Source: Carnobacterium pleistocenium FTR1
GTDB taxonomy: Bacteria; Bacillota; Bacilli; Lactobacillales; Carnobacteriaceae
Length of the DNA stretch: 64,000 nt
Reading direction: 5' to 3'
Assembly: GCF_000744285.1 (NCBI RefSeq)
Contig: NZ_JQLQ01000002.1
Coordinates: 2,232,001 to 2,296,000, forward strand
The translations under genes were made by a program, and so were the position numbers. Shown here in pieces: positions 4,671 to 32,812 of this stretch (its first letter is position 1; the number at the start of each line of letters is the position of its first letter). The notes under the pieces are model-generated. The model ran no database searches and was not told where the DNA came from. It saw nothing but the letters and a program-made list of their open reading frames with translations.

Positions 4671-4990
4671 TGAAATAAAAAAACTCTCATCCTTATACTA
4701 AGCACACTGCTCACTATAAGGACGAAAGTTTCGAATTTTCGTGTTACCACCTTAATTTATTGATTTATTGCTAAATCAACCTCTTCCAGTACTCAAGCTT
4801 TTTTCAACTCTTTTATACTGCGGCACGTTATCGGGTGCACCCGGAATAGGCTTATGCAAAGCATTCACTCATTCTGCTCAAAGACCATCTTCGGTTCAAT
4901 TCCCATTACCTTTTTTCAGCAAACAAGGCTCTCTATGAATGGTTATTACGAACGTACTCTTCTTATCATCGCGTTATTGATATTTAATAT
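4671..4990 (-). promoter_or_regulatory. T-box leader (probably methionine-specific) upstream of metNIQ
   Basis: Read on the minus strand, the leader contains the conserved T-box core AAGGTGGTAACACG (4740-4753). This is followed by a terminator hairpin with arms TCCTTATA/TATAAGGA (4690-4722) and a U-run at 4684-4671. The upstream part folds as a long stem I. In its 3' side the stretch GCAGAATGAGTG offers an AUG specifier at 4872-4870. T-boxes read through when the matching tRNA is uncharged, so the call is a tRNA-Met-sensing antitermination switch. Lactobacillales are known to use Met T-boxes where bacilli use S-boxes. The T-box core is seen; the exact specifier is inferred. Confidence 0.88.
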
Positions 4991-5400: not shown

Positions 5401-5772
5401 CTATCTCTTTTCGTTTCTGTCTCCCCACGTTTTTTCATAGACGTCTTCTTTAAAACCCAGAGTCGTTGTTTTTCCATCTGTCAACAACGGTCTTTTGATC
5501 AACATGCCTTCTGTTGCCAATACTGTGGCGCCTTCATCGATTGCCATATTGGGTACACGTGATTTCAGCTCTAATTCGCGGTACCTATTTCCGCTAGTAT
5601 TGAAAAATCGGATAAGAGGAAGATCAGACTGCTTTATTAAATCAACTAACGTTTCTTGTGTTGGTGGAGTATCAATCATATTTATCGCTTGATACTCTAT
5701 CGCCTGCTGGTCTAACCATTTCCTTGCTGCTTTACATGTTGAACAAGTAGGGTGTTGATATAGTTTAAGCAT
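5401..5772 (-). CDS. Spx/ArsC-family thioredoxin-fold protein (YusI-like)
   Basis: A 123-residue member of the ArsC/Spx family with a redox motif CSTC at residues 10-13 (LYQHPTCSTCKAARKWL). The conserved IRFFNTSGN and LIKRPLL stretches are present. The CxxC resembles Spx more than classic arsenate reductase, yet there is no arsenic gene nearby, and the closest known layout is B. subtilis yusI next to gcvH. It could be a redox regulator or a reductase; the sequence does not decide. SD TAGGAG is about 8 nt before ATG. It forms a two-gene unit with gcvH. Confidence 0.85.
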   Translation of the reverse strand: MLKLYQHPTCSTCKAARKWLDQQAIEYQAINMIDTPPTQETLVDLIKQSDLPLIRFFNTSGNRYRELELKSRVPNMAIDEGATVLATEGMLIKRPLLTDGKTTTLGFKEDVYEKTWGDRNEKR

Positions 5773-5802
5773 TTTAGCTCACTCCTATCGTCCGTCACGT
5801 TT

Positions 5803-6978
5803 TTATTTGAAACTTTCGTCTTCTTCAGAAAACATGTAGCTGCGGTAATGATACCTCATGGACATGATCAATCCAACACCCATCATATTTCCTAACAACG
5901 CCGTTCCCCCTTGAGAAATAAACGGCAGTGGTATCCCAGTTAATGGAAGTAGCCCAATACTCATACCGATATTTTCAAAAACATGGAACAAAATCATCAT
6001 AATGACACCCGTTGCGATATAAGCGTAAAATTCATTTTTCGTATCAAAACAAATACGGATCATTTGATAAATCAATAAAAAGTAGATGAAAATCAAAATG
6101 CAACTGCCGAGAAAACCAAAATTTTCGCCAATTGTTGAAAAAATCATATCTGACTCTCGAACTGGCACATAAACTTCTGAGGTTCCAAAGCCTTTACCAA
6201 GCATTCTCCCTGAGCCTATCGCTTTTATACTCTGGATCAATTGATAGGATGTATCTCCTGAGTCTCCATAAGGATTTAGCCAAGAGTCTATTCGAGAGAA
6301 TTGATACGGTTTAAAACCCAATTGTAGTAGAAATTCTCGATTGTACACTACTAGAGCGAGCAAGGTCCCCCCAAGTGCCGCAACTCCAGTAAATAATGGC
6401 AGAATGATTTTCCACGTGATGCCTGATATCAGCACTAAACCAATAATAATAGCGATAAATACAAGTGTTGAACCTAAATCATTTTGTAACATGACCAGTA
6501 TTAGTGGCGGAACTGAAGTTAGCATAATCTTTCCTATTAATAAGAAATCAGTTTTAGGGAAATGGTTTAAGTAGTCGCCATTATGTTTTGTGACTACACG
6601 AGCGAGCATAAGAATAAAGGAAATTTTCATAATTTCGGAGGGCTGGAAGGTCAGTCGACCTATCTTAAACCAACTTTTGGCTCCAGTACTCAATTCTGTA
6701 GGGCGATCATAAAGGAATAAAACAAGCACTAACAGAAAGAGCCCTATACCATATGCAACCGGCGCTAATTTCCATAATTGCTCCGAATCAAATTGCATAA
6801 TAACAATGATGGCAACTGTGCCAACTACATACCAGATTACTTGCATTAGCGTAGCTCCCATACCACCGCCAGCATCCAAAGAAGTCGTTGAGAAGATAGT
6901 CGCAATACTAATGATTGCTAGCAACAAGACGGATAAGATGATTCCATAATCTATTTTTGTTTCTTTGTTCTCTGTCAT
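5803..6978 (-). CDS. rodA: SEDS-family peptidoglycan polymerase, RodA type
   Basis: A 391-residue polytopic protein of the RodA/FtsW/SpoVE family with about ten membrane segments. Diagnostic stretches are RPTELSTGAKSWFKIG, FQPSEIMKISFILMLAR, QNDLGSTLV, and near the C-terminus PLPFISQGGTALL. These proteins polymerise lipid II into glycan strands together with a class B penicillin-binding protein. The RodA rather than FtsW call rests on length and on the absence of division genes nearby, so it is an inference. It is probably transcribed alone from the AT-rich stretch at 6980-7055. Confidence 0.88.
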   Translation of the reverse strand: MTENKETKIDYGIILSVLLLAIISIATIFSTTSLDAGGGMGATLMQVIWYVVGTVAIIVIMQFDSEQLWKLAPVAYGIGLFLLVLVLFLYDRPTELSTGAKSWFKIGRLTFQPSEIMKISFILMLARVVTKHNGDYLNHFPKTDFLLIGKIMLTSVPPLILVMLQNDLGSTLVFIAIIIGLVLISGITWKIILPLFTGVAALGGTLLALVVYNREFLLQLGFKPYQFSRIDSWLNPYGDSGDTSYQLIQSIKAIGSGRMLGKGFGTSEVYVPVRESDMIFSTIGENFGFLGSCILIFIYFLLIYQMIRICFDTKNEFYAYIATGVIMMILFHVFENIGMSIGLLPLTGIPLPFISQGGTALLGNMMGVGLIMSMRYHYRSYMFSEEDESFK

Positions 6979-7058
6979 TTTTTAACATTCTCCTTGTGTC
7001 CTATCTGTTAAAAATTTCTTTATCAAACTTCATTCATTATATAAGAAATCAAATCTAA

Positions 7059-7081
7059 AAAAAAGACTTCTCGTCTTTTTT
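7059..7081. terminator. Small hairpin, second terminator between yihY and rodA
   Basis: AAAAAAGAC and GTCTTTTTT arms with a 5-nt loop. The run of A/T on both sides would let it act on either strand. It lies about 40 nt beyond the larger yihY terminator, so the two may work in tandem. Confidence 0.5.
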
Positions 7082-7122
7082 AGAGAAATCTTACAATACT
7101 GTCCTGCTAAAAGTAACTGAGC

Positions 7123-7158
7123 AAAAAGAAAACTGAATGAGGTTTCAGTTTTCTTTTT
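7123..7158 (-). terminator. Terminator of the yihY-like gene, overlapping its stop codon
   Basis: A perfect 15-bp hairpin (AAAAAGAAAACTGAA and its complement, 6-nt loop). The yihY stop codon at 7147-7145 and its last codons sit inside the first arm. The arm ends in a run of U on the minus strand. Confidence 0.8.
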
Positions 7159-8131
7159 GTTTTTCGACTGTTTTTACTTTAATTAATTTTTTATGTTGAA
7201 TCGAATCTAAACTATCTGGATATTCTTTTGGTCTATCGTCTTTTTCGGCTTCGTCTTTCTCAAGTTTAACTTCATTAACTGATTTACCCATTTTATATTC
7301 AAAATAAACTGAATTGATCAGTCCACCTAATAATAAAATTATTGCTGATAAATAAAGCCAGACCATTAAAACAATGAATACCCCGAACGTCGCGCTAGCC
7401 GCTGCTTCTCCTCCAGCAAATTGGATATAAAGCGTAAATGCTTGAGATAAAATCAACCAACCTATTGTAGTAAATACAGCTCCTGGAACAGCATATTTAA
7501 TTTTCAAACGATTATTTGGTACTAAAAAATAAACCATGGTTAGGACTAGAATCAAGACAACAAGCAAAACTAGCCATCTATAACCAAACACTTGCAGAAT
7601 GATTCCCAGATCGATTCCCAAGAAATCTTGGACAAATAACAAAATTTGTTCCCCAAAAACAAAAATAAAAATCAATGACCCTACGATAGCCACCATGGCT
7701 AATTGAACCAAAAATGATACTAATCGGACAATAATAAAGTTTTCTCTCGCTTTTACTCCATAAACGCTATTCAACACATTTTGTAAAGCGTTAAATGCTT
7801 TACTAGCAGCCCATAATGACGTAATAAGTCCGATAGAAATAGCTCCTCCACTTGAACTACTTAAATAATTTTCTAGTATCGGTGCTAGGATATTGTAAAT
7901 ATCTGGTGGAACTCCTGTTTCTAAAAGTGGCAATACATCAGATGCTCGGATAGGAAAGAGCGGAATAACATTAGCTACAACCAATAAAATAGGAAATAAA
8001 GATAGCAAACTAAAGTAAGCCAATTCGGCTGCATTTGAGGAAACTTCAGCTCGTTCCCAATTGGGTTTTGCGACTTCTAGGATAGATTTCAATTTGTCTT
8101 TAAAAGAAGCTTGTTTAGTATTCGTTGCCAA
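7145..8131 (-). CDS. YihY/BrkB-family membrane protein
   Basis: A 328-residue polytopic protein with six predicted membrane segments and the family stretch AELAYFSLLSLFPILLVVANVIP near the N-terminus, plus LWAASKAFNALQ and FGVFIVLMVWLYLSA. The family was once misnamed RNase BN; the true function is unknown. It has a charged C-terminal tail of about 50 residues. GTG at 8140 is one base from the SD, whereas TTG at 8131 has AAAGGA at 9 nt, so 8131 is preferred. It is a single-gene unit. Confidence 0.85.
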   Translation of the reverse strand: MATNTKQASFKDKLKSILEVAKPNWERAEVSSNAAELAYFSLLSLFPILLVVANVIPLFPIRASDVLPLLETGVPPDIYNILAPILENYLSSSSGGAISIGLITSLWAASKAFNALQNVLNSVYGVKARENFIIVRLVSFLVQLAMVAIVGSLIFIFVFGEQILLFVQDFLGIDLGIILQVFGYRWLVLLVVLILVLTMVYFLVPNNRLKIKYAVPGAVFTTIGWLILSQAFTLYIQFAGGEAAASATFGVFIVLMVWLYLSAIILLLGGLINSVYFEYKMGKSVNEVKLEKDEAEKDDRPKEYPDSLDSIQHKKLIKVKTVEKQKEN

Positions 8132-9996: not shown

Positions 9997-10008
9997 AATT
10001 TGACTCGA

Positions 10009-10372
10009 TGGAAGCGAGGGGAGTCGAACCCCTGTCCAAATATATCGGCACCCAGACGTCTACGTTCATAGTTATGCTATTAAGGTTTCGCTCAGTACTA
10101 GCCGCACAACAGGCATCGTATATCGCTAGTCTGATAATCTATTCTAAAACTTGCAGACGGAAAGTTTTAGCGTATCCCACTAATTATAGGACCCTTGCTC
10201 GAGCACATGGGCGATGCCGAGAGGATCTACACTAAGCTGTTATTACGCAGCTAAAGCGTAAGAGTTATTATTGTTTTTGTCAGTTATATTTAACTGTAAC
10301 GTTTTTACGTAGCCGTAACCTACGAAACGCAATCCAAGCTCGACCTATACCTGTCGATTCCGTAACGCTCCC
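10009..10372 (-). ncRNA. ssrA: Transfer-messenger RNA (tmRNA)
   Basis: tmRNA rescues stalled ribosomes together with SmpB (21.5 kb). The 7-bp acceptor stem GGGAGCG (10372-10366) pairs with CGCTTCC (10016-10010), followed by discriminator A at 10009. The T-arm reads GGGGTTCGACTCCCC. The 5' region has the hallmark TTACGGAATCGACAGGTATA. The tag frame (10281-10243) reads GAC AAA AAC AAT AAT AAC TCT TAC GCT TTA GCT GCG TAA, giving DKNNNNSYALAA. The resume codon is therefore GAC (Asp) where relatives usually have an Ala codon. CCA is not encoded (next bases TCG). Length 364 nt. Confidence 0.95.
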
Positions 10373-24372: not shown

Positions 24373-25125
24373 TTATCCTCCATTCCAATCTAACTGTTTC
24401 AAAAAATTGCTAACATCTTCTTGCAAAGCTTTTCTATCTACTCCAACCGTTACTGCATGTTGGCTGTTTTCATACCAATGAAAATCAACCACTGAAGCTT
24501 GTGTTAATGCCGCCTTCAAAGCAAACGCTACCTGTGGATCAATCAATTCATCTTGACCAGCCTGTGCAATAAAGAAGGGATGTTTGATTTCACTAATATC
24601 CGTTTCCATTGATTGCGTTAGTTCGCCTATTTCATCTAATTGGTCGTCTAATTTCTTTTCGATTCCCGGCATGTAATCCTCTATTTCTATCTCGGAATAA
24701 CCGGCTTTCTTTTTCAATGTCCGCACGTAAGTTAAAAATTCTTTTTTCACATTATTGCCTCTATGAAAATTCATTACTGGGGAACAAAACGTTCCACCCG
24801 CTACTATCGGTTCTCTATCTATCAGCATTTTAGTTGCTATCACACCGCCCATAGACAGTCCAAATATAGCTATTTTTTTATACCCTTTTTCAAGCAAGAA
24901 CTGGATGGCTTCTTTCGCATCCTCAACCCAATCTGTTGGTGATGTATCTAAAATATCTTCTGGGTCTTTCGTTCCATGTCCTTTGAATAACGGTGCATAA
25001 ACGGTATAATTTTCTTTTTCTAGCGCTCTCCCTAACATCCGCACATCATTAGGAGTACTAGAGTAAGCATGCATTAAGATGACCGCTTGAGGCCCGTTTT
25101 CAAAAAAAAATGATTTTATCGCCAT
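24373..25125 (-). CDS. est: Carboxylesterase (YvaK/Est30 type)
   Basis: A 250-residue alpha/beta-hydrolase. The nucleophile elbow is GLSMGG; the acid and base are likely in QAGQDELIDP and NSQHAVT. N-terminal VILMHAYSSTPNDVRMLG is typical of bacterial Est30-like carboxylesterases, which have a small cap. It is encoded between secG and rnr, as in B. subtilis (yvaK), though its link to RNA decay or secretion is unknown. The physiological substrate is not evident. The 3-nt gap to rnr implies co-transcription. Confidence 0.9.
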   Translation of the reverse strand: MAIKSFFFENGPQAVILMHAYSSTPNDVRMLGRALEKENYTVYAPLFKGHGTKDPEDILDTSPTDWVEDAKEAIQFLLEKGYKKIAIFGLSMGGVIATKMLIDREPIVAGGTFCSPVMNFHRGNNVKKEFLTYVRTLKKKAGYSEIEIEDYMPGIEKKLDDQLDEIGELTQSMETDISEIKHPFFIAQAGQDELIDPQVAFALKAALTQASVVDFHWYENSQHAVTVGVDRKALQEDVSNFLKQLDWNGG

Positions 25126-25231
25126 CCTATTCTCCCTTTTCTCATTTCCTGTAAGTCTTTATTCTACTATTTTACTGTAAAATAAACTTTTTTCATACTT
25201 AAACACTGTTAATGCTATGAAAAGTCTTTGC

Positions 25232-25243
25232 ACTAACGTTAGT
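25232..25243. promoter_or_regulatory. Perfect 12-bp palindrome between secG and est
   Basis: ACTAACGTTAGT is a perfect dyad inside a longer imperfect one (TGACTAACGTTAGTGC) about 107 nt upstream of est. It lies 33 nt beyond the secG terminator. It looks like an operator; no regulator is assigned. Confidence 0.35.
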
Positions 25244-25275
25244 CAGTAAAGGATGTTAAATTTTTTAGAAAAAAA

Positions 25276-25299
25276 AGCCACCTGAAGATTCAGGTAGCT
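25276..25299 (-). terminator. Terminator of secG
   Basis: AGCCACCTGA / TCAGGTAGCT hairpin with a long A-run on the plus strand (U-run in the minus transcript). Some read-through into est may occur because the est-rnr-smpB promoter is not obvious. Confidence 0.8.
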
Positions 25300-25308
25300 T
25301 CACTAATT

Positions 25309-25554
25309 TCATTGATTAATTGCTATATAAGCGAGAGCCAGTGCCAATGCAAAGAATAAGATTCCAAGTACTACTGTAGTACGTTGCAATACTGCCTCAA
25401 ATCCACGTGCTTTTTGTTTTCCAAATAATTGTTCAGCTCCGCCAGTAAACGCACTAGCAGCATTATTTGTTTTTGAAGGTTGCATAGCTACCACAATGAT
25501 AAGTAAAACTGAAATAATTAGTTCAGCAATTAAAAGTGTATCGTACAATTTCAT
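25309..25554 (-). CDS. secG: Preprotein translocase subunit SecG
   Basis: An 81-residue two-helix membrane protein of the SecYEG channel. The family core is clear: GGAEQLFGKQKARGFEAVLQ between helix 1 (about residues 5-25) and helix 2 (about 58-78). I start it at ATG 25554; GATAGGAGG precedes it closely (3-nt gap), and a TTG two codons later has the better 9-nt spacing, so the exact start is uncertain. The frame continues 14 codons upstream to 25596 without support. It opens the conserved secG-est-rnr-smpB block. Confidence 0.92.
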   Translation of the reverse strand: MKLYDTLLIAELIISVLLIIVVAMQPSKTNNAASAFTGGAEQLFGKQKARGFEAVLQRTTVVLGILFFALALALAYIAINQ

Positions 25555-25612
25555 TGCCCTCCTATCTACCGTTTCTTCTATCCCTAACTTTAACATAAAT
25601 TCTATTAAATTA

Positions 25613-25668
25613 CTAGAAAATAAATGAAGTTATTCCCTTGCTAATTTACGTTTTCATTTACTTTCTAG
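25613..25668 (-). terminator. Hairpin at the end of the serCA-DUF1015 operon
   Basis: Sixteen-bp stem with one mismatch (CTAGAAAATAAATGAA against the complement at 25653-25668) that includes the DUF1015 stop codon. It has no clear U-tract, so it may be a weak terminator or a 3' stabiliser. Confidence 0.45.
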
Positions 25669-26895
25669 GTCGTGAACAAATAATCCGCTTAGCAACTTTG
25701 GTTCGAACCAAGTTGATTTTGGAGGCAACACTTCTCCGCTGTCTGCTACCCGTATCAATTCATCGATTTTTGTCGGATACATAGAAAATGCTACTGTAAA
25801 TGATCCTTTATCAACCGCATCACTTAATGCTTGCATTCCTCTGATTCCTCCAATAAAATCCACTCGTTTGTCTGTACGGATATCTTTTATACCGAATAAA
25901 GGCGTCAGCACGTGTTCTTGTAAAAGTGAAACATCAAGTCCTTTTACAGGGTGATTTGAAATAAAAGCAGGTTTTATGGTTAGTTTATACCAATCACCTT
26001 GCAAATACATGCCGATTGTTTTAGGACGATCCGGTTTATAACTAGCAGAAACTTTTTCAATCTCAAATTTTTCAGCTAATTGGTCTAAAAAGTCTTCTTC
26101 AATCAAGCCGTTAACTACTCGATTATAGTCTAAAATTGCTAGTTGTGATGCTGGAAAAAGAACGGCTAGAAAATAATTGAATTCTGCTTCATCTGGTTCG
26201 TTTGGATAAGTCTCTTTCCTTTTTAAAGCAACTTTTACAGCTGATTCTGTTCGATGGTGTCCATCGGCAATATACAACTCTGCTACATTTTGTTCAAATA
26301 ACTTTTCCAATTGATTAATAACGGTTTTTTGGTCAATGACCCATACTTTATGTTTCACCTCATGAAAACTTGAAAAGTCATACATAGGTTCATTCTCGGT
26401 GACCCATTGCTCAATCAATTCATCAATTGATTCTTGATCTCGGTAGGTTAAAAATATTGGACTTGTATTTGCATCTGCTGCATCAATGTGTCGAATACGA
26501 TCTACTTCTTTTTCTTCACGTGTAAATTCATGTTTTTTAATCTTTTTTTCTTGGTAATCCTTGATAGATGCACAGACCACTAAACCCATCTGCGAACGTC
26601 CATTCATTGTCAGCTGATACAAATAAAACTGGTCTTCATCATCTTGCACAAGCCATTTTTTGCTTAAAAACTCTTTTAAATTGCTGGCAGCCTTTTGATA
26701 CACTTCTTCCGCGTAAGGAGAATTTTCTTCAGCTAGGTCAATCTCTGATTTATCAATGTGTAAAAATGATTTTTCATTTTGACGGCCTATTTTACGAGCC
26801 TCATTTGTACTCAGTACATCATAAGGAAGAGAAGCAATGTCGTTTGCATACTCTTCAGCCGGTCGAATAGCTTTGAATGGTTTAATTTTCACCAT
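25654..26895 (-). CDS. DUF1015 family protein of the serine operon
   Basis: A 413-residue cytosolic protein. The N-terminal stretch IKPFKAIRPAEEYANDIASL followed by PYDVL is the DUF1015 hallmark. In the middle is IADGHHRTESAV with DGHHR at residues 211-215. Such a DGHHR box also occurs in ParB/Srx-like enzymes including the serine kinase SerK, so it may bind nucleotide (inference). It sits 11 nt after serA in a serC-serA-DUF1015 unit, a recurring arrangement. No phosphoserine phosphatase (serB) is encoded nearby, so the protein could act on phosphoserine or regulate the pathway. Function is unproven. Confidence 0.88.
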   Translation of the reverse strand: MVKIKPFKAIRPAEEYANDIASLPYDVLSTNEARKIGRQNEKSFLHIDKSEIDLAEENSPYAEEVYQKAASNLKEFLSKKWLVQDDEDQFYLYQLTMNGRSQMGLVVCASIKDYQEKKIKKHEFTREEKEVDRIRHIDAADANTSPIFLTYRDQESIDELIEQWVTENEPMYDFSSFHEVKHKVWVIDQKTVINQLEKLFEQNVAELYIADGHHRTESAVKVALKRKETYPNEPDEAEFNYFLAVLFPASQLAILDYNRVVNGLIEEDFLDQLAEKFEIEKVSASYKPDRPKTIGMYLQGDWYKLTIKPAFISNHPVKGLDVSLLQEHVLTPLFGIKDIRTDKRVDFIGGIRGMQALSDAVDKGSFTVAFSMYPTKIDELIRVADSGEVLPPKSTWFEPKLLSGLFVHDLESK

Positions 26896-26906
26896 GGTTT
26901 CTCCTC

Positions 26907-28088
26907 CTATTTGCTATTATTATTTTTGATTACTCGAACATTTAAAATTCCTTCGACATTTCCCACCCTTTTAACAATCAGCGTCAACTTGTCTTCTGGA
27001 ATAGATTCAATATCAATCAGAGTATACGCATAGTCTCCACGGCTTTTATTCATAATGTTTACGATATTCACACCATATTCGGCTAATCCAATAGATATTT
27101 GGGCAACCATATTCGTAATATTGCGATTGATAATTGCTAATCGTAGCGGAGAATTAAGAACCATTTCTACAGTTGGAAAATTAACGGAATGGACGATATT
27201 ACCAGTCTCCAAGAAATATTTCAGTGTTTTTGAAGCCATTTTAGCACAATTGATTTCTGCTTCTTCTGTTGATGCCCCTAAATGTGGCATGACAACAGCA
27301 TTTTCCATTTTAATTAGTCGCTCGTCAGCAAAATCGGTCATGTATTTTTTCAGCTGTCCTTTTTCAAGTGCAGAGATGACCGCATCTACGTCAACAAGCT
27401 CACCACGTGCAAAATTCAATAAGGTAGCCTCTTTTTTTACTAACGCTAGTTTGTCCGCGCTGATCATTGCTCTGGTAGATTCCATTAAAGGCACATGAAC
27501 AGTGATGTAGTCGGAAGTCGTTAATACTTCTTCAATTGTCAACACTCGTTTGACCCGACTGGAAATGCTCCAAGCAATATCGACTGATACATATGGATCA
27601 TACCCTACAACATCCATTCCTAAGCGATAAGCGTCATTTGCCACCATCGCACCGATTGATCCTAACCCTATGACTCCTAGCTGTTTCCCAGCTAATTCGG
27701 TCCCAACAAAACGATTTTTTTCTGCCTCTACTTTTTTATCGACATCTGGACCTTTGAGTGTTTTCACCCATTCTACGCCTCCAATAATCGGACGAACCGC
27801 TAATAATAAACTAGCTAGGACCAATTCTTTTACCGCATTTGCATTGGCTCCCGGAGTATTAAAGACTACTACCCCTTTTTTAGAGCATTCTTGTACCGGA
27901 ATGTTATTCGTTCCAGCTCCAGCACGTGCAATTGCTTTCAATTGGCTAGGGAAAGTCATATCGTGCAAATTTTGGCTCCTTAATACTATGCCATCAGGAT
28001 CATCTGTTTGATTTAACTGATAATTTTCTACTTCAAATTTTTTCAAGCCATCTTCGGCTATTGCGTTATACGTTTTAATAGCAAACAT
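26907..28088 (-). CDS. serA: D-3-phosphoglycerate dehydrogenase
   Basis: A 393-residue NAD-dependent dehydrogenase, first step of serine synthesis. Marks are AIARAGAGTNNIPV, the Rossmann motif GVIGLGSIGAMVAND (about 146-160), catalytic-domain VHVPLMESTRAM, NFARGELVD and HLGASTEEAE. The C-terminal 70 residues form an ACT domain (YGVNIVNIMNKSRGDYAYTLIDI), suggesting feedback by serine. It is the short SerA type without the extra ASB domain. It begins 2 nt after the serC stop codon. Confidence 0.95.
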   Translation of the reverse strand: MFAIKTYNAIAEDGLKKFEVENYQLNQTDDPDGIVLRSQNLHDMTFPSQLKAIARAGAGTNNIPVQECSKKGVVVFNTPGANANAVKELVLASLLLAVRPIIGGVEWVKTLKGPDVDKKVEAEKNRFVGTELAGKQLGVIGLGSIGAMVANDAYRLGMDVVGYDPYVSVDIAWSISSRVKRVLTIEEVLTTSDYITVHVPLMESTRAMISADKLALVKKEATLLNFARGELVDVDAVISALEKGQLKKYMTDFADERLIKMENAVVMPHLGASTEEAEINCAKMASKTLKYFLETGNIVHSVNFPTVEMVLNSPLRLAIINRNITNMVAQISIGLAEYGVNIVNIMNKSRGDYAYTLIDIESIPEDKLTLIVKRVGNVEGILNVRVIKNNNSK

Positions 28089-28090
28089 CC

Positions 28091-29173
28091 TTATTGATCC
28101 CCTTCCACTTTTGCTTCAAATTCTTTCATAAATCTTACTAATTCTTTCACACCTTCAAGTGGAAAAGCATTATACAAACTAGCCCTCATTCCACCTACAG
28201 AACGGTGTCCTTTTAAATTGATCATCCCTTTGCTTTCGGCTTGCTGGATAAATGATTTATCCAATTCCGCATTCCCTGTAATAAATGGAATATTAGTTAA
28301 AGAACGAGAACCTATAGAAACTGGTGAACGATAAAGGTTTGACGATTCAATAGCCTCGTAAAGTAAACTCGCTTTTTCTCGATTTATTTTTTCGATTTCC
28401 GTAATGCCACCTAATTCTTTGAGCCATTCAAACATCAATTTAGCTGCATAGATGGCAAATGTTGGCGGTGTGTTGTACATTGATCCGTTATCAACATGCA
28501 TTTTATAGTCTAGCATCGCAGGTAAGTTTTCTTTTAGACCAATCAAATCTTTCCGAACAATAACAACAGTTAATCCAGCAGGCCCAATATTCTTTTGGGC
28601 TCCAGCATAAATCAAGCCAAAATCAGATACATTATATCGACTGGACAAGATGTTAGAAGACATATCAGCAACCAACAAAACGTCTCCAGCTTGAGGCACC
28701 TTAAGAAAAGCTGTTCCTTCAATAGTATTATTCGTTGTGATGTGTAGATAATCAAATTCTGAATCTACTAAGGGTATAGCAGGATTTTCAGTAAAGTTAT
28801 TTTCTTTTGAACTAGCAATAACTTCTACTGTTAAACCATCCGTTTTTCGAGCTTCTTCTATAGCTTTTTTAGACCAGCTTCCAGTATTGACATATGCCAC
28901 CTTATTTTTCCCTAAATTCATTGGCAGCATGGTAAATTGCAAGCTTGCTCCCCCTTGCAAAAATAACACTTCATAGTTTACCGGAATATCCATCAATTCG
29001 CGTAAAAGCGACTCTGCATCATTCATAATGGATTGAAATAATGAGGAACGATGACTTAACTCCATAACTGACATGCCACTGCCTTGATAAGACAATAAGT
29101 CTTTTTGTATCGTTTTTAATACAGATACCGGCATAATAGCTGGTCCCGCTGAAAAGTTATAAACTCGCTTCAT
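28091..29173 (-). CDS. serC: Phosphoserine aminotransferase
   Basis: A 360-residue class V PLP aminotransferase making phosphoserine from 3-phosphohydroxypyruvate. It opens [16 protein letters not shown]; the PLP lysine is in [18 protein letters not shown] (about residue 197), and [18 protein letters not shown] closes it. It is the first gene of serC-serA-DUF1015, whose last step (phosphatase) has no recognised gene here. SD AGGAG lies upstream of ATG 29173. Confidence 0.95.
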
Positions 29174-29235
29174 TCTAATCCACTCCTAATTATATCCGTT
29201 TAAAACTAACCGGATTTTAATAAACCATGATTTTT

Positions 29236-29241
29236 ATTATA
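29236..29241 (-). promoter_or_regulatory. Candidate extended -10 of the serC promoter
   Basis: TGGTATAAT on the minus strand (TG-N-TATAAT), about 63 nt before the serC start codon; no good -35 box is visible, as is common for extended -10 promoters. Confidence 0.45.
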
Positions 29242-29325
29242 CCAGTATTTTCATATTTAAACAGACAAACTTAAATTTTTTTAAACTGCTGAAAAAGGAA
29301 CTATCAATCCTATTTGTCATATAAC

Positions 29326-29362
29326 TAAAAAAAGAGACCGGGAAATCCCAATCTCTTTTTTT
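29326..29362 (-). terminator. Terminator of the EIIB gene
   Basis: AAAAAAGAGA / TCTCTTTTTT-type hairpin 49 nt after the EIIB stop, with a U-run on the minus strand. It insulates the serC promoter. Confidence 0.8.
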
Positions 29363-29410
29363 GTTCTATAGAGTTTTTTTAAACTAAGGTTACTTTTTTT
29401 AAAAGCCTAT

Positions 29411-29908
29411 TTAAAGCATTTTTTCTTTTTTCAATAAATCCATCATATATACTTTATTATCTGCCACTACTTTACGAATTTCTAATTTAATTCCTTGATC
29501 ATTTAGATATTTCAAATTTTCTACATCTGCATTGTTTACTGCAACTGCATTTGTGATCATTTTTTTACCATCCGAGAAACTCATCCCACCAATATTGATA
29601 GAATCAAATTTAACTCCACCTTCCACTGCTCTTTTTGCATCATGTGGACTTGTAAACAATAGCATCGCTTTAAAATGATCAAATTTAGAATCATTAAAAA
29701 TCGAAATCATTTTATCAACTGTGATAACATTTACAATAACGCCCGGAGGAGAAGCTTGTTTCAACAATGTTTTTCTCAACAAATCTTTTGCTACCTCATC
29801 ACTGACAACTAATATACGATTTACTTTTGTCACTTTTGCCCATACGGTTGCAACCTGGCCATGAATCAACCGGTCATCAATACGAACTAAACGAATTTCC
29901 ATTGGCAT
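29411..29908 (-). CDS. Orphan PTS mannose-family EIIB component
   Basis: A 165-residue cytosolic EIIB of the mannose/fructose/sorbose PTS family. The phosphoryl-accepting His is in RIDDRLIHGQVATVWAK (about residue 16), and SPPGV and GGMSF are conserved. No EIIA, EIIC or EIID lies in the window, so this is an orphan subunit. Its place 78 nt after a LevR-type activator suggests that it signals transport state to that regulator, as in Listeria-like man systems (inference). An ATG two codons later (29902) preceded by AAGG is an alternative start. Confidence 0.9.
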   Translation of the reverse strand: MPMEIRLVRIDDRLIHGQVATVWAKVTKVNRILVVSDEVAKDLLRKTLLKQASPPGVIVNVITVDKMISIFNDSKFDHFKAMLLFTSPHDAKRAVEGGVKFDSINIGGMSFSDGKKMITNAVAVNNADVENLKYLNDQGIKLEIRKVVADNKVYMMDLLKKEKML

Positions 29909-29986
29909 CCTTATCTATTCTCCTCATCAATCTTCTTCTAAAATTGCAATAATCTGGGTAAACAATTGTTTCTACCCTAACCTTTT

Positions 29987-32812
29987 TTATGCATCAACAA
30001 TTTTAACAATATAAAATATTTCTGAATCTGGAATACTCATATTTAATTTTGATTCAAGCAGTAGATTCGCTTCTTTAATAGCTTGGTAATAAATGGAAGC
30101 CGTATCGATTTCTTCCTCTGGCTGATTGAGTGGATCTCTAAATAAAACTCGTTCGATCACACCTGCCATATGCATTAACAAGCCTATTTGAACGCTATTG
30201 CTGAGTGTTTTATCTAATTTTTCTTCAATGATCTCGGTGTAGTCCCATAAGATATTAATAAATTTACGCGGATTTAAGAAAGTGAAATAAGTAGCCAAAT
30301 ATTCTTCGCAAAGCTGCTTCGTGTCCATTGATTCAGCATAATTTCCTTCAGCATATTGCTGGTTTAAAATCACTTGTTTAACTTTCTCATCTCCTGAAGA
30401 CTGAAATAATTCTTCTAAAGAAAGATGTGGAACGTTTAAAGATGACTTTGCAACTCCAGCAGTCGCTAGCACTTGATAATTTTTCGAAATCTTTGTAACT
30501 TCTTCCTCGATACCAACTAAAGAGATAGAGAAAATTTCAATTGTCTCATCGATAAAATCTTCTAATACACTTTCGACACGTTGTTTTATTCTTACAGCTG
30601 TTCCTTCACCCGTCGAACAAATGGTAATAATCGCTTTAGGTTTATTGATTCTTTGTTGTTGAGGTACGGTTAAAAGAACGGGATTATCTTCTGGAAGATT
30701 GCTGTACCCTCTGAAATTTTTCAAAGACCAGTAGACTTCATCTAATTGATTATCCATCAAAGATGTTTTACGCGCTGCTTCTAATACGAGTGGAGTCGTT
30801 ACCATATCTAATGTTTGGATTGAGATATCCGTTTCTCGCATAGCTTTCACACCAAATGTAGTTAAAGATCCCATATCAACCAACAATAAGACACCTTTGC
30901 CTTCATTCACATTTTGGATTGCTGACAAAACTAATTTATAAGCTTGTTGTGGGCTCATTTCCAAAGGCATGTCCACAGCTTCAATATTTTTAACATCTAG
31001 TAATTTGGATACTACTTGGACCATACTGGTAGCTGTGGAGCGGCCATGCGCAGCAACGACCATCCCAACATCACCCAAATTATTTTGTTCTTTTAAAGAT
31101 ACCAGCAACATAGTCAAATACCAGCATTCTACTTCTGGAACAATAATTTGGTAATTTTCTTTCATATGATTTTTAATTATAATAGCTACTTCGTATTCGT
31201 TTTGGTAATTTAAAATCAATTTATCTAATTCACTATTTTGTTTTATTTGAACAAAACCTTCTTTTGAACGTTTGATGAATGAACTAAGGTGTAAACTCAT
31301 GGCATATAAAAAATTTTGTTTAAAATGATACCCTAAATGTTCTTCCGCCATTTTCCAAACTTCTTTTGTTAATGTGATAACTTCTTGTTCAACGATATCT
31401 CTTAGGTTGTGTTCATTATTTGGAATCAATTGATTGGTTTTATAGAAAGATTTCAAATGAAGATTAATATCAGTTGTAATAAAATTCTCAATATCTTCTT
31501 GTGTCAATCCTTCGTCTCTGAGCATCACTGCTTTATCTCCAATGATTTCATATAAATTAAATGGCAATTCATAAGAATCTTTGTCTAAAATATAGACAGA
31601 GTCTTTTGGGTGGATTACCATGCTAGGTTCAAGATAATTGGATATTTCATTCAATTCTTCTCGATTTCTCGCAATGTTGAGTAAGCCTTCTTGCAATTCT
31701 CCGGTTAATCCATCCATATTGATCAGCATTTCTTCATTGTTATCCATGCTATTCAAAAAGGCTTTGGCACAGGCCAATTGGATGCTTGACTTTAGTTGAC
31801 CTATATTTCCATAAGTAACACTTCCAAGCAATGCCTTAACAACATTTTCTTCGATAACAATTCGTTTATCAATACGTTTCGCTTCAATAGACAACAATAA
31901 TTTAAGCAATTGAATACGTTCATTAGCTGGCCGATCATTGAATGCTGGCAGTTCGATCGTAATAGGGATACGTCTTACAAAGGTCTTCAATAATGCAGAA
32001 TTAGGATCTTCAGTTGTCGCACAAATGATTCGAACTTTAGCTGAATAGCGTTTGTCAGTTTCCCCCATTGGCTGAAATGTTCCGGTATCCATAAAATAAA
32101 AAAGCATTTCTTGTCCTTCAGGAGGCAAGCGATGAATTTCATCTAGAAACAGCATATTATTATCAGCTTTCAGTAATAATCCTTCTTTTGCTTCTGTTGC
32201 ACCCGTATAAGCTCCCTTGGCATGTCCAAACAAATGAGACATCAGTAATTGCGGGTTTTGCGAATAGTCTGCACAATTAAAAATAATCATAGATTGACCT
32301 GGTTCAATGATTCCCTTATCTTGCGAATATTGATACATAGCATTAGCAAAGAAAGTCTTTCCTGATCCAGTTGGACCAATAACGAGACTATTCAATCCTT
32401 TAGGAGGGTAAAAAATAGCAGCCTTTGCTTGTTCCATTTGATTTTTCAAACTACCATTTGAACCAATCATATACTCAAATAAGTTATTATCTTTTTTTAT
32501 AGGATCATTTTGTTTTTCTATTACCCGTTTTTCTTTGATCAATGTTTCATCTTTATAGGATTGTACGACTTTCGACAAAGGTTTCCATTTTAAACAACTG
32601 CTATCAACATATCGCACAGGTCTTCCTTCAAGTTTCGCTACTTTTCCTTCGCGAACTAAAAGATTCAACTCTTTACTTACATTATTGCGAATAATATTTA
32701 GCGCATCAGAAATTTCAATCGTTGTCATCCCTGATCCGAATTCTATTTCATCACTAGTAAGGTTTTCAGTATGATTTTTAACAAACTGATAAACTAAATC
32801 TTTTCTTTTCAT
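29987..32812 (-). CDS. LevR-type sigma-54-dependent activator with PTS regulatory domains
   Basis: A 941-residue regulator. Order: N-terminal winged helix (about 1-75), AAA+ domain with Walker A GPTGSGKT (146-153) and the sigma-54 contact loop GAYTGA (200-205), a first PRD (about 440-530), an EIIA-Man-like domain with His589 in AAHGRS, an EIIB-Gat-like segment with Cys732 in ICSTGEGT, and a second PRD with His881 in LLMHMAGV. Such proteins (LevR/ManR) switch on mannose-class PTS operons with RpoN and are tuned by PTS phosphorylation. The target operon is not in the window. The orphan EIIB follows at 78 nt. Confidence 0.93.
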   Translation of the reverse strand: MKRKDLVYQFVKNHTENLTSDEIEFGSGMTTIEISDALNIIRNNVSKELNLLVREGKVAKLEGRPVRYVDSSCLKWKPLSKVVQSYKDETLIKEKRVIEKQNDPIKKDNNLFEYMIGSNGSLKNQMEQAKAAIFYPPKGLNSLVIGPTGSGKTFFANAMYQYSQDKGIIEPGQSMIIFNCADYSQNPQLLMSHLFGHAKGAYTGATEAKEGLLLKADNNMLFLDEIHRLPPEGQEMLFYFMDTGTFQPMGETDKRYSAKVRIICATTEDPNSALLKTFVRRIPITIELPAFNDRPANERIQLLKLLLSIEAKRIDKRIVIEENVVKALLGSVTYGNIGQLKSSIQLACAKAFLNSMDNNEEMLINMDGLTGELQEGLLNIARNREELNEISNYLEPSMVIHPKDSVYILDKDSYELPFNLYEIIGDKAVMLRDEGLTQEDIENFITTDINLHLKSFYKTNQLIPNNEHNLRDIVEQEVITLTKEVWKMAEEHLGYHFKQNFLYAMSLHLSSFIKRSKEGFVQIKQNSELDKLILNYQNEYEVAIIIKNHMKENYQIIVPEVECWYLTMLLVSLKEQNNLGDVGMVVAAHGRSTATSMVQVVSKLLDVKNIEAVDMPLEMSPQQAYKLVLSAIQNVNEGKGVLLLVDMGSLTTFGVKAMRETDISIQTLDMVTTPLVLEAARKTSLMDNQLDEVYWSLKNFRGYSNLPEDNPVLLTVPQQQRINKPKAIITICSTGEGTAVRIKQRVESVLEDFIDETIEIFSISLVGIEEEVTKISKNYQVLATAGVAKSSLNVPHLSLEELFQSSGDEKVKQVILNQQYAEGNYAESMDTKQLCEEYLATYFTFLNPRKFINILWDYTEIIEEKLDKTLSNSVQIGLLMHMAGVIERVLFRDPLNQPEEEIDTASIYYQAIKEANLLLESKLNMSIPDSEIFYIVKIVDA

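Follow-up and report, generated by a model that had tools for sequence, protein, structure and literature searches.

The locus analyzed here raises the question which enzyme converts phosphoserine to serine in Carnobacterium pleistocenium FTR1. It lies in a stretch of 64,000 nucleotides (the window; contig NZ_JQLQ01000002.1, positions 2,232,001 to 2,296,000), to which all coordinates below refer unless a locus of another genome is named, and comprises three genes on the minus strand: serC, encoding phosphoserine aminotransferase (28091..29173); a serA-like gene for a 3-phosphoglycerate dehydrogenase of the short type (393 aa; 26907..28088); and a gene for a 413-aa protein of the DUF1015 family (25654..26895), for which the fold of the archaeal serine kinase SerK is predicted. 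We put at about 55% the probability that DUF1015 proteins of the serine-operon clade, to which the window protein belongs, replace the phosphoserine phosphatase SerB and convert phosphoserine to serine in a SerK-like cleft. This reading is based on the operon, the fold, the conserved residues and the distribution of the family, from which we infer the substrate, the direction and the chemistry of the reaction.

A serC-serA-DUF1015 unit in a genome lacking canonical SerB

The serC product scored 494 bits with TIGR01364 (cut-off 443.6) and 532 bits with NF003764 (cut-off 253). For the serA product, which contains 2-Hacid_dh domains (Pfam), the best NCBIfam model was PGDH, yet the score was under the model cut-off (230.6 vs 454). 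The third protein matched PF06245 with 368.9 bits (cut-off 25.8) along the complete profile (1-325 of 325); the nearest named relative found was Carnobacterium jeotgali (88% identical). The three genes are tightly packed, just as the original prediction from the sequence had it, with gaps of 2 nt between serC and serA and 11 nt between serA and the DUF1015 gene.

The same prediction stated that no SerB is encoded near these genes, and this holds for the whole genome, where no match exceeded the cut-off of TIGR00338, the one SerB type searched for there. The search scored all 29 first-look candidates and yielded 27 matches at E<=10, none of which exceeded 34.9 bits (cut-off 144.15). Fourteen reading frames of the haloacid dehalogenase (HAD) type were located under these weak matches, and ten could be named by NCBIfam: six Cof-type proteins, two beta-phosphoglucomutases, one member of the YqeG family and one haloacid dehalogenase of type II. 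L009, a Cof-type protein, reaches 43.8 bits with the SerB model, far under the cut-off. The genome search rules out canonical SerB, but not other phosphatases acting on phosphoserine. DUF1015 itself is not SerB-like, with no match to an NCBIfam family at E<=0.1 and no HAD domain found by Pfam.

Predicted fold and conserved residues

An AlphaFold2 model of the window protein alone, built from an alignment of 61 sequences, has a mean predicted local distance difference test score of 96.0 and a predicted template modelling score of 0.92. Foldseek comparison of this model with the PDB produced 288 matches at E<=10, and all nine matches at E<=0.001 (E 1.0e-6 to 1.3e-5) were SerK (5x0 series), its homologue from P. 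furiosus (1vk1) or SbnI. VIA-align placed these nine at Z 11.6-13.4 over 212-227 residues, and the rows below them were a ParB-N domain (Z 3.4) and two unrelated chains (Z 2.1). The original prediction had named ParB and SerK as folds to compare; the predicted structure, with SerK and SbnI as the only significant matches, makes the relationship stronger than was stated then. The template modelling (TM) scores given by Foldseek are moderate (0.33-0.39 by query, 0.51-0.63 by target), in line with a predicted common fold with large insertions rather than a near copy of SerK, and the first ~88 residues of DUF1015 are outside most matched ranges. Pfam at E<=0.1 found only DUF1015 in the protein and no helix-turn-helix DNA-binding domain, unlike in the ParB partition protein.

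Profile comparisons point in the same direction. A profile search of the PDB retrieved four sequences at E<=10, all of them SerK or 1vk1, which is 88% identical to SerK; these matches are weak (E 0.041-0.69) and collinear in two segments, one around DGHHR and one around PKxT near the C-terminus. When the DUF1015 family was compared directly with SerK by hhalign, P was 2.4e-5 over 153 columns spanning DGHHR to PKxT, while clade B alone (the clades are described below) gave P 2.9e-8 with a probability of 95%, and both clades jointly gave 2e-7. A direct phmmer search of the PDB with the window protein yielded a single match (E 0.4), which was taken as chance. By its predicted structure, its sequence profile and its motifs, DUF1015 is a SerK-fold family.

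The box that had drawn attention to this protein, DGHHR at residues 211-215 (26251..26265, minus strand), is that of ParB/SerK-fold proteins and indeed aligns with D69-R73 of SerK in the profile alignment. It is unchanged in 175 of 176 aligned DUF1015 proteins, and a chance origin of the motif was ruled out by this conservation, with which the fold search agrees. The sole altered box (SGHHL, in L211) belongs to what is possibly a decaying copy; D211 and R215 each vary once, both in one protein. Near the C-terminus, the PKST part of PPKSTWFEPK (residues 391-400; 25696..25725, minus strand) aligns with PKTT at residues 220-223 of SerK. H122, E123, G212, H213, H214, R259 and K393 are invariant in all 176 proteins, and T395 is present in 175, the remaining protein having a gap; R259 falls opposite a SerK proline in our reading of the alignment.

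The KKHE motif (residues 120-123; 26527..26538, minus strand) may hold the counterpart of a catalytic residue, as H122-E123 lie on H29-E30 when both clades are aligned under the constraint that SerK is covered in full, albeit with low local confidence. This pairing is supported by the His-Glu pair on both sides, by the similarity of the clade B motif (mostly LPHE) to KPHE of SerK, and by the position of the pair, which in both proteins opens the region that leads up to the DGHHR strand. In SerK, Glu30 is located within KPHE by the PDB chains of the E30Q and E30A mutants, and Glu30 is reportedly the catalytic base.

Distribution of DUF1015, SerC and SerB

The association of DUF1015 with serine genes is strongest in Lactobacillales. 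Profile searches of 148 genomes of this order detected DUF1015 in 46 genomes (15 of 48 genera), SerC in 60 and SerB over the cut-off in 16, all from one genus. DUF1015 co-occurs with SerC (Fisher 3.6e-26, no correction for relatedness): in each of the 46 genomes that have it, SerC is found on the same contig and in the same orientation, the two matches being 852-1308 nt apart, and serA occupies this gap in all 30 loci examined. SerB over the cut-off was seen in none of the 46, with candidates only partly scored in many of them. Thus the 60 SerC genomes consist of 46 with DUF1015, five with SerB and nine with neither.

In a sample of 199 genomes from the whole phylum Bacillota, DUF1015 was found in 99 genomes, SerC (TIGR01364) in 57 and both in 41 (Fisher 8.1e-5); SerB over the cut-off was found in none, and ten genomes had weaker matches at E<=1e-12.

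The 148 sampled genomes of Bacteroidota contain DUF1015 in 131 cases, SerC at E<=1e-30 in 86 (63 over the cut-off) and SerB over the cut-off in 41. No more than 6 kb separates DUF1015 from SerC in 63 genomes, where SerB over the cut-off was never observed (weak match in seven, none in 56), and seven of the other 23 SerC-positive genomes have SerB (Fisher 4.6e-5, again uncorrected for relatedness). In this phylum as a whole DUF1015 and SerB are not exclusive, since 39 of the 148 genomes carry both. Thirty-four of the Bacteroidota have DUF1015 and SerB without SerC of the TIGR01364 type; twelve of these were fetched, and in all twelve DUF1015 belongs to clade B and no serine gene was detected in the stretch.

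A further set was reached through DUF1015 itself: at 53 genome-contig loci, a serA homologue is upstream in 50 and serC in 48. SerB was evaluated in 48 of the 53 genomes of this set, and 31 of them have none over the cut-off; among these 31 are isolates of Rikenella microfusus, Millionella massiliensis, Perlabentimonas gracilis and C. jeotgali, and metagenome bins of unstated completeness make up many of the others.

Two clades of DUF1015

A quick, midpoint-drawn tree of 113 rows, in which some long branches are perhaps misplaced, separates clade A (KKHE, YNRVV, PPKSTWFEPK) from clade B (mostly LPHE, THRLV, MPQKST). The window protein falls into clade A, the serine-operon clade, which carries Lys at position 121, in contrast to the Pro found in SerK and in the majority of clade B. 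To the Bacillota loci (fetched from 80 of the 99 phylum-sample genomes with DUF1015, 75 loci analyzed, stretches of up to ~16 kb) we assigned clades by identity to the window protein, at least 40% being called A and lower values B. Of the 27 loci called A, 24 have a homologue of serA or serC in the stretch that was fetched.

Four DUF1015 proteins from SerB-bearing genomes (L237-L240) are on the clade A side of the tree on a long branch and outside a serine operon; all four are without R133, and two of them have lost T125. Clade B genes were seen in other surroundings as well: next to ScpA, TsaE and TsaD-family genes in a SerB-bearing genome (L227, DUF1015 at 5983-7263), and next to an EamA transporter and an Era-like GTPase gene (L245, DUF1015 at 5734-7011).

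Regulation

An Rfam scan of 44 DUF1015 loci for leaders identified one T-box (132 bits), which is directly upstream of an aminotransferase-serA-DUF1015 unit (L176), the serA product being PGDH over the cut-off (720 bits) and DUF1015 being of clade B. Its specifier, read by eye in the printed alignment, is the serine codon UCC, and its antiterminator bulge, also read by eye, is UGGC, which suits tRNA-Ser with its G73. A serine T-box implies induction on serine shortage and hence a biosynthetic role.

The serC unit of the window has no Rfam leader at the gathering score, and a riboswitch upstream of serC was rejected, the region 29100-30100 giving only four weak Rfam matches far under the gathering scores. 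Elsewhere in the window there is a T-box leader at 4715-4978 (minus strand, 112.3 bits). COG4198 is presumably the DUF1015 family. A glycine riboswitch upstream of COG4198 is mentioned in the available part of one paper (PMC2211319); the Rfam scan found a glycine riboswitch at none of the 44 loci.

Proposed function and alternatives

The earlier assignment of DUF1015 to the serine pathway is retained in part: the conserved operons, the absence of SerB from the DUF1015 genomes of the order sample and the single T-box read as serine-specific speak for the pathway, and the reaction is proposed as follows. Clade A DUF1015 would bind phosphoserine made by SerA and SerC in the SerK-like cleft, where E123 may act as general acid/base, DGHHR together with PKxT (K393, T395) would grip the phosphate, and R259 is a candidate for an extra phosphate ligand. 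Phosphoserine would become serine by net hydrolysis, perhaps with the help of a bound nucleotide, or by phosphorolysis with inorganic phosphate. Either is more plausible than phosphate transfer to ADP or AMP, because making ATP or ADP with the phosphate of phosphoserine costs ~20 kJ/mol under standard conditions, which hardly suits the final reaction of a biosynthetic route. On these general thermodynamic values, a reversed ADP-dependent kinase was demoted from favored mechanism, and phosphorolysis was kept only as an option. SerK itself did not take pyrophosphate as a donor, according to the accessible part of the report on this enzyme (PMC5120207).

The serine-operon DUF1015 is the best candidate seen for the step from phosphoserine to serine in many bacteria without SerB, and we give the enzymatic claim itself about an even chance. 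The wider formulation, by which clade A would be a class of phosphoserine phosphatases on the SerK fold and the missing last enzyme in many Bacillota and Bacteroidota, and clade B a second bacterial enzyme of phosphoserine or serine, is tentative and a little short of even.

A number of observations weigh against SerB replacement. The relatives, SerK and SbnI, are kinases that work in the opposite direction. SerB over the cut-off is present in 17 of the 48 genomes reached through DUF1015 loci, and all 17, which are Bacteroidales, keep serC, serA and DUF1015 in that order, so that the operon DUF1015 and SerB can co-exist; the control genomes of Bacteroides ihuae and Methanosarcina acetivorans also contain both. 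A strict one-for-one replacement of SerB as a universal rule is thereby ruled out, and the absence of SerB from the 63 Bacteroidota genomes with DUF1015 near SerC reflects the lineages drawn by the sample.

Nor do DUF1015 and SerC always occur together. In the phylum sample, 16 of 57 SerC genomes are without DUF1015, and 58 of 99 DUF1015 genomes are without SerC of the TIGR01364 type. Both SerB and DUF1015 are missing from nine of the 60 Lactobacillales genomes with SerC; in two of these (L127 and L130) the gene order of the window, serC-serA, secG, esterase, is kept, as judged by eye, with DUF1015 absent, so another solution must exist there or the pathway is not completed. Clade B retains the conserved residues, yet a serine-gene homologue is in the stretch at only four of 48 loci called B, two of which (L220 and L221) cluster in the tree on the side of clade A, and the T-box case is a clade B protein from one of 44 loci scanned. 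The SerB searches of the samples scored only part of the candidates in many genomes (for instance 18 of 28 in the genome of the window), the search of this genome covered SerB of the TIGR00338 type, and the alignment of E123 with Glu30 has the low local confidence noted above.

The first alternative is that DUF1015 is a true free-serine kinase forming phosphoserine from serine, and that another phosphatase completes serine synthesis; in the operon it might return serine to 3-phosphoglycerate or provide the phosphoserine needed for some other product. Kinases are the only known members of this fold group, the residue aligned with Glu30 is conserved, and SerB also accompanies DUF1015 in the 17 genomes just described. 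According to the accessible part of the SerK paper, serK is near serA and aminotransferase genes in some Desulfurococcales, which was taken as serine assimilation (PMC5120207). We nevertheless consider a kinase, though a serious competitor, unlikely: next to the biosynthetic serC and serA it would create a futile cycle, the phosphatase it calls for was not seen as SerB in any of the 46 DUF1015 genomes of the order, the only T-box implies induction on serine shortage, and position 121 is Lys in clade A instead of the Pro of SerK and most of clade B.

Serine could also be made by a generic phosphatase of the HAD or histidine family, with DUF1015 having another catalytic role such as metabolite repair or tuning of the phosphoserine pool. 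The genome does encode several Cof-type and other HAD phosphatases, nine SerC-positive genomes of the order lack both SerB and DUF1015, and the 17 SerB-bearing genomes retain DUF1015 in the serine operon. In a SerC-positive, DUF1015-negative genome of the phylum sample, serA is followed by a histidine-family phosphatase (L135, 8710-9351) whose best model is PspA, with 188 bits under the cut-off of 350; judged from its sequence, this is a possible parallel replacement of SerB. This explanation appears improbable, as it does not account for the presence of SerC, always just upstream, in all 46 DUF1015 genomes of the order, nor for the long-branched proteins L237-L240 that, in SerB-bearing genomes, are outside the serine operon and without R133.

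Finally, it is very improbable that DUF1015 is a nucleotide- or serine-binding regulator of the operon (a ParB-like switch) and no enzyme: nucleotide switches do occur in the ParB fold, and a fusion spelled 'DU1015', taken as DUF1015, was picked in a ParB-fold survey as far as its available text goes (PMC12704722), but serine-kinase motifs are retained across 176 proteins, Pfam found no DNA-binding domain, and ParB proper matches the model weakly (Z 3.4).

Neighboring genes

In one respect the original description of the operon is not established, namely that DUF1015 is its closing gene. The secG gene (25309..25596, minus strand; PF03840, 76.1 bits) starts 57 nt downstream, and the terminator-like hairpin (25274..25301, minus strand), which was identified by a consensus scan only, is found only after secG. 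The transcript may therefore run past DUF1015, and secG is possibly co-transcribed with it. This hairpin is the one site found by the terminator scan of 25000-29700, a scan for which shuffled sequence averaged 2.2 sites.

Upstream of serC, on the same strand, are a gene for a sorbose-type IIB component of the phosphotransferase system (PTS; 29411-29908) and a 941-aa open reading frame (29987-32812) that by eye resembles a PTS activator of the LevR type. A hairpin-like sequence near 29331-29365, also noticed by eye, separates serC from these genes. A transfer-messenger RNA gene is located at 10006-10372 (minus strand).

Comparison with known systems

The absence of a phosphoserine phosphatase is a recognized gap, as the available parts of three papers indicate (PMC9026213, PMC7311316, PMC5764234). 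A total of 450 human-gut genomes, from diverse Firmicutes, were reported to have SerA and SerC and none of four SerB types (PMC9026213, available part), and in GapMind the serine-free growth of E. faecalis and C. perfringens was left unexplained (PMC7311316, available part). The open-licence literature retrieved with 'DUF1015' and 'COG4198' assigns no function to DUF1015 in the portions available, and these report the gene beside serC in Porphyromonas. In the phosphoserine-phosphatase literature (new or missing enzymes; combinations with serine kinase or SbnI), no listed title or abstract opening names DUF1015, and none of the matches listed for serine needs of Carnobacterium names this genus. 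A 2025 survey of ParB folds chose the fusion mentioned above for nucleotide-binding tests (PMC12704722, available part). A DUF with a serine-kinase fold in a serC-serA operon offers a candidate for the gap in published serine reconstructions. If the proposed role is true, a widely distributed DUF would acquire a function, and phosphoryl transfer on free serine would have evolved in the opposite direction.

SerB (HAD, TIGR00338) would share with DUF1015 the reaction and the place in the pathway; its fold is unrelated, and DUF1015 shows no HAD domain. Histidine phosphatases of the PspA/SerB2 type are an earlier, unrelated replacement of SerB according to the available part of the source (PMC9026213) and belong to superfamily PF00300, which is not that of DUF1015. 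SbnI (PDB 5uje, 6nr6, 5ujd) has the same fold as the DUF1015 model (Z 11.6-12.2) and, in the portions of the literature available, is the free serine kinase of the synthesis of the siderophore staphyloferrin B, unlike DUF1015; the comparison of DGHHR and PKxT residues was made with SerK.

The closest parallel is SerK, the archaeal ADP-dependent free serine kinase (T. kodakarensis TK0378; PDB 5x0b and others), which phosphorylates serine using ADP, as the accessible part of its description says (PMC5120207). The two-domain fold is shared over nearly all of SerK (chain residues 8-240 on 97-412 of the DUF1015 model), D69-R73 and PKTT are collinear with D211-R215 and PKST, Glu30 falls on E123 with low local confidence, and the chemistry presumably concerns serine and phosphoserine in both. 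DUF1015 differs in its length of 413 aa, with ~88 mostly unmatched N-terminal residues and insertions before DGHHR, in Lys-Lys-His-Glu of clade A vs Lys-Pro-His-Glu of SerK, in the invariant Arg259 opposite a SerK proline, and in its position in biosynthetic operons, often in genomes without SerB.

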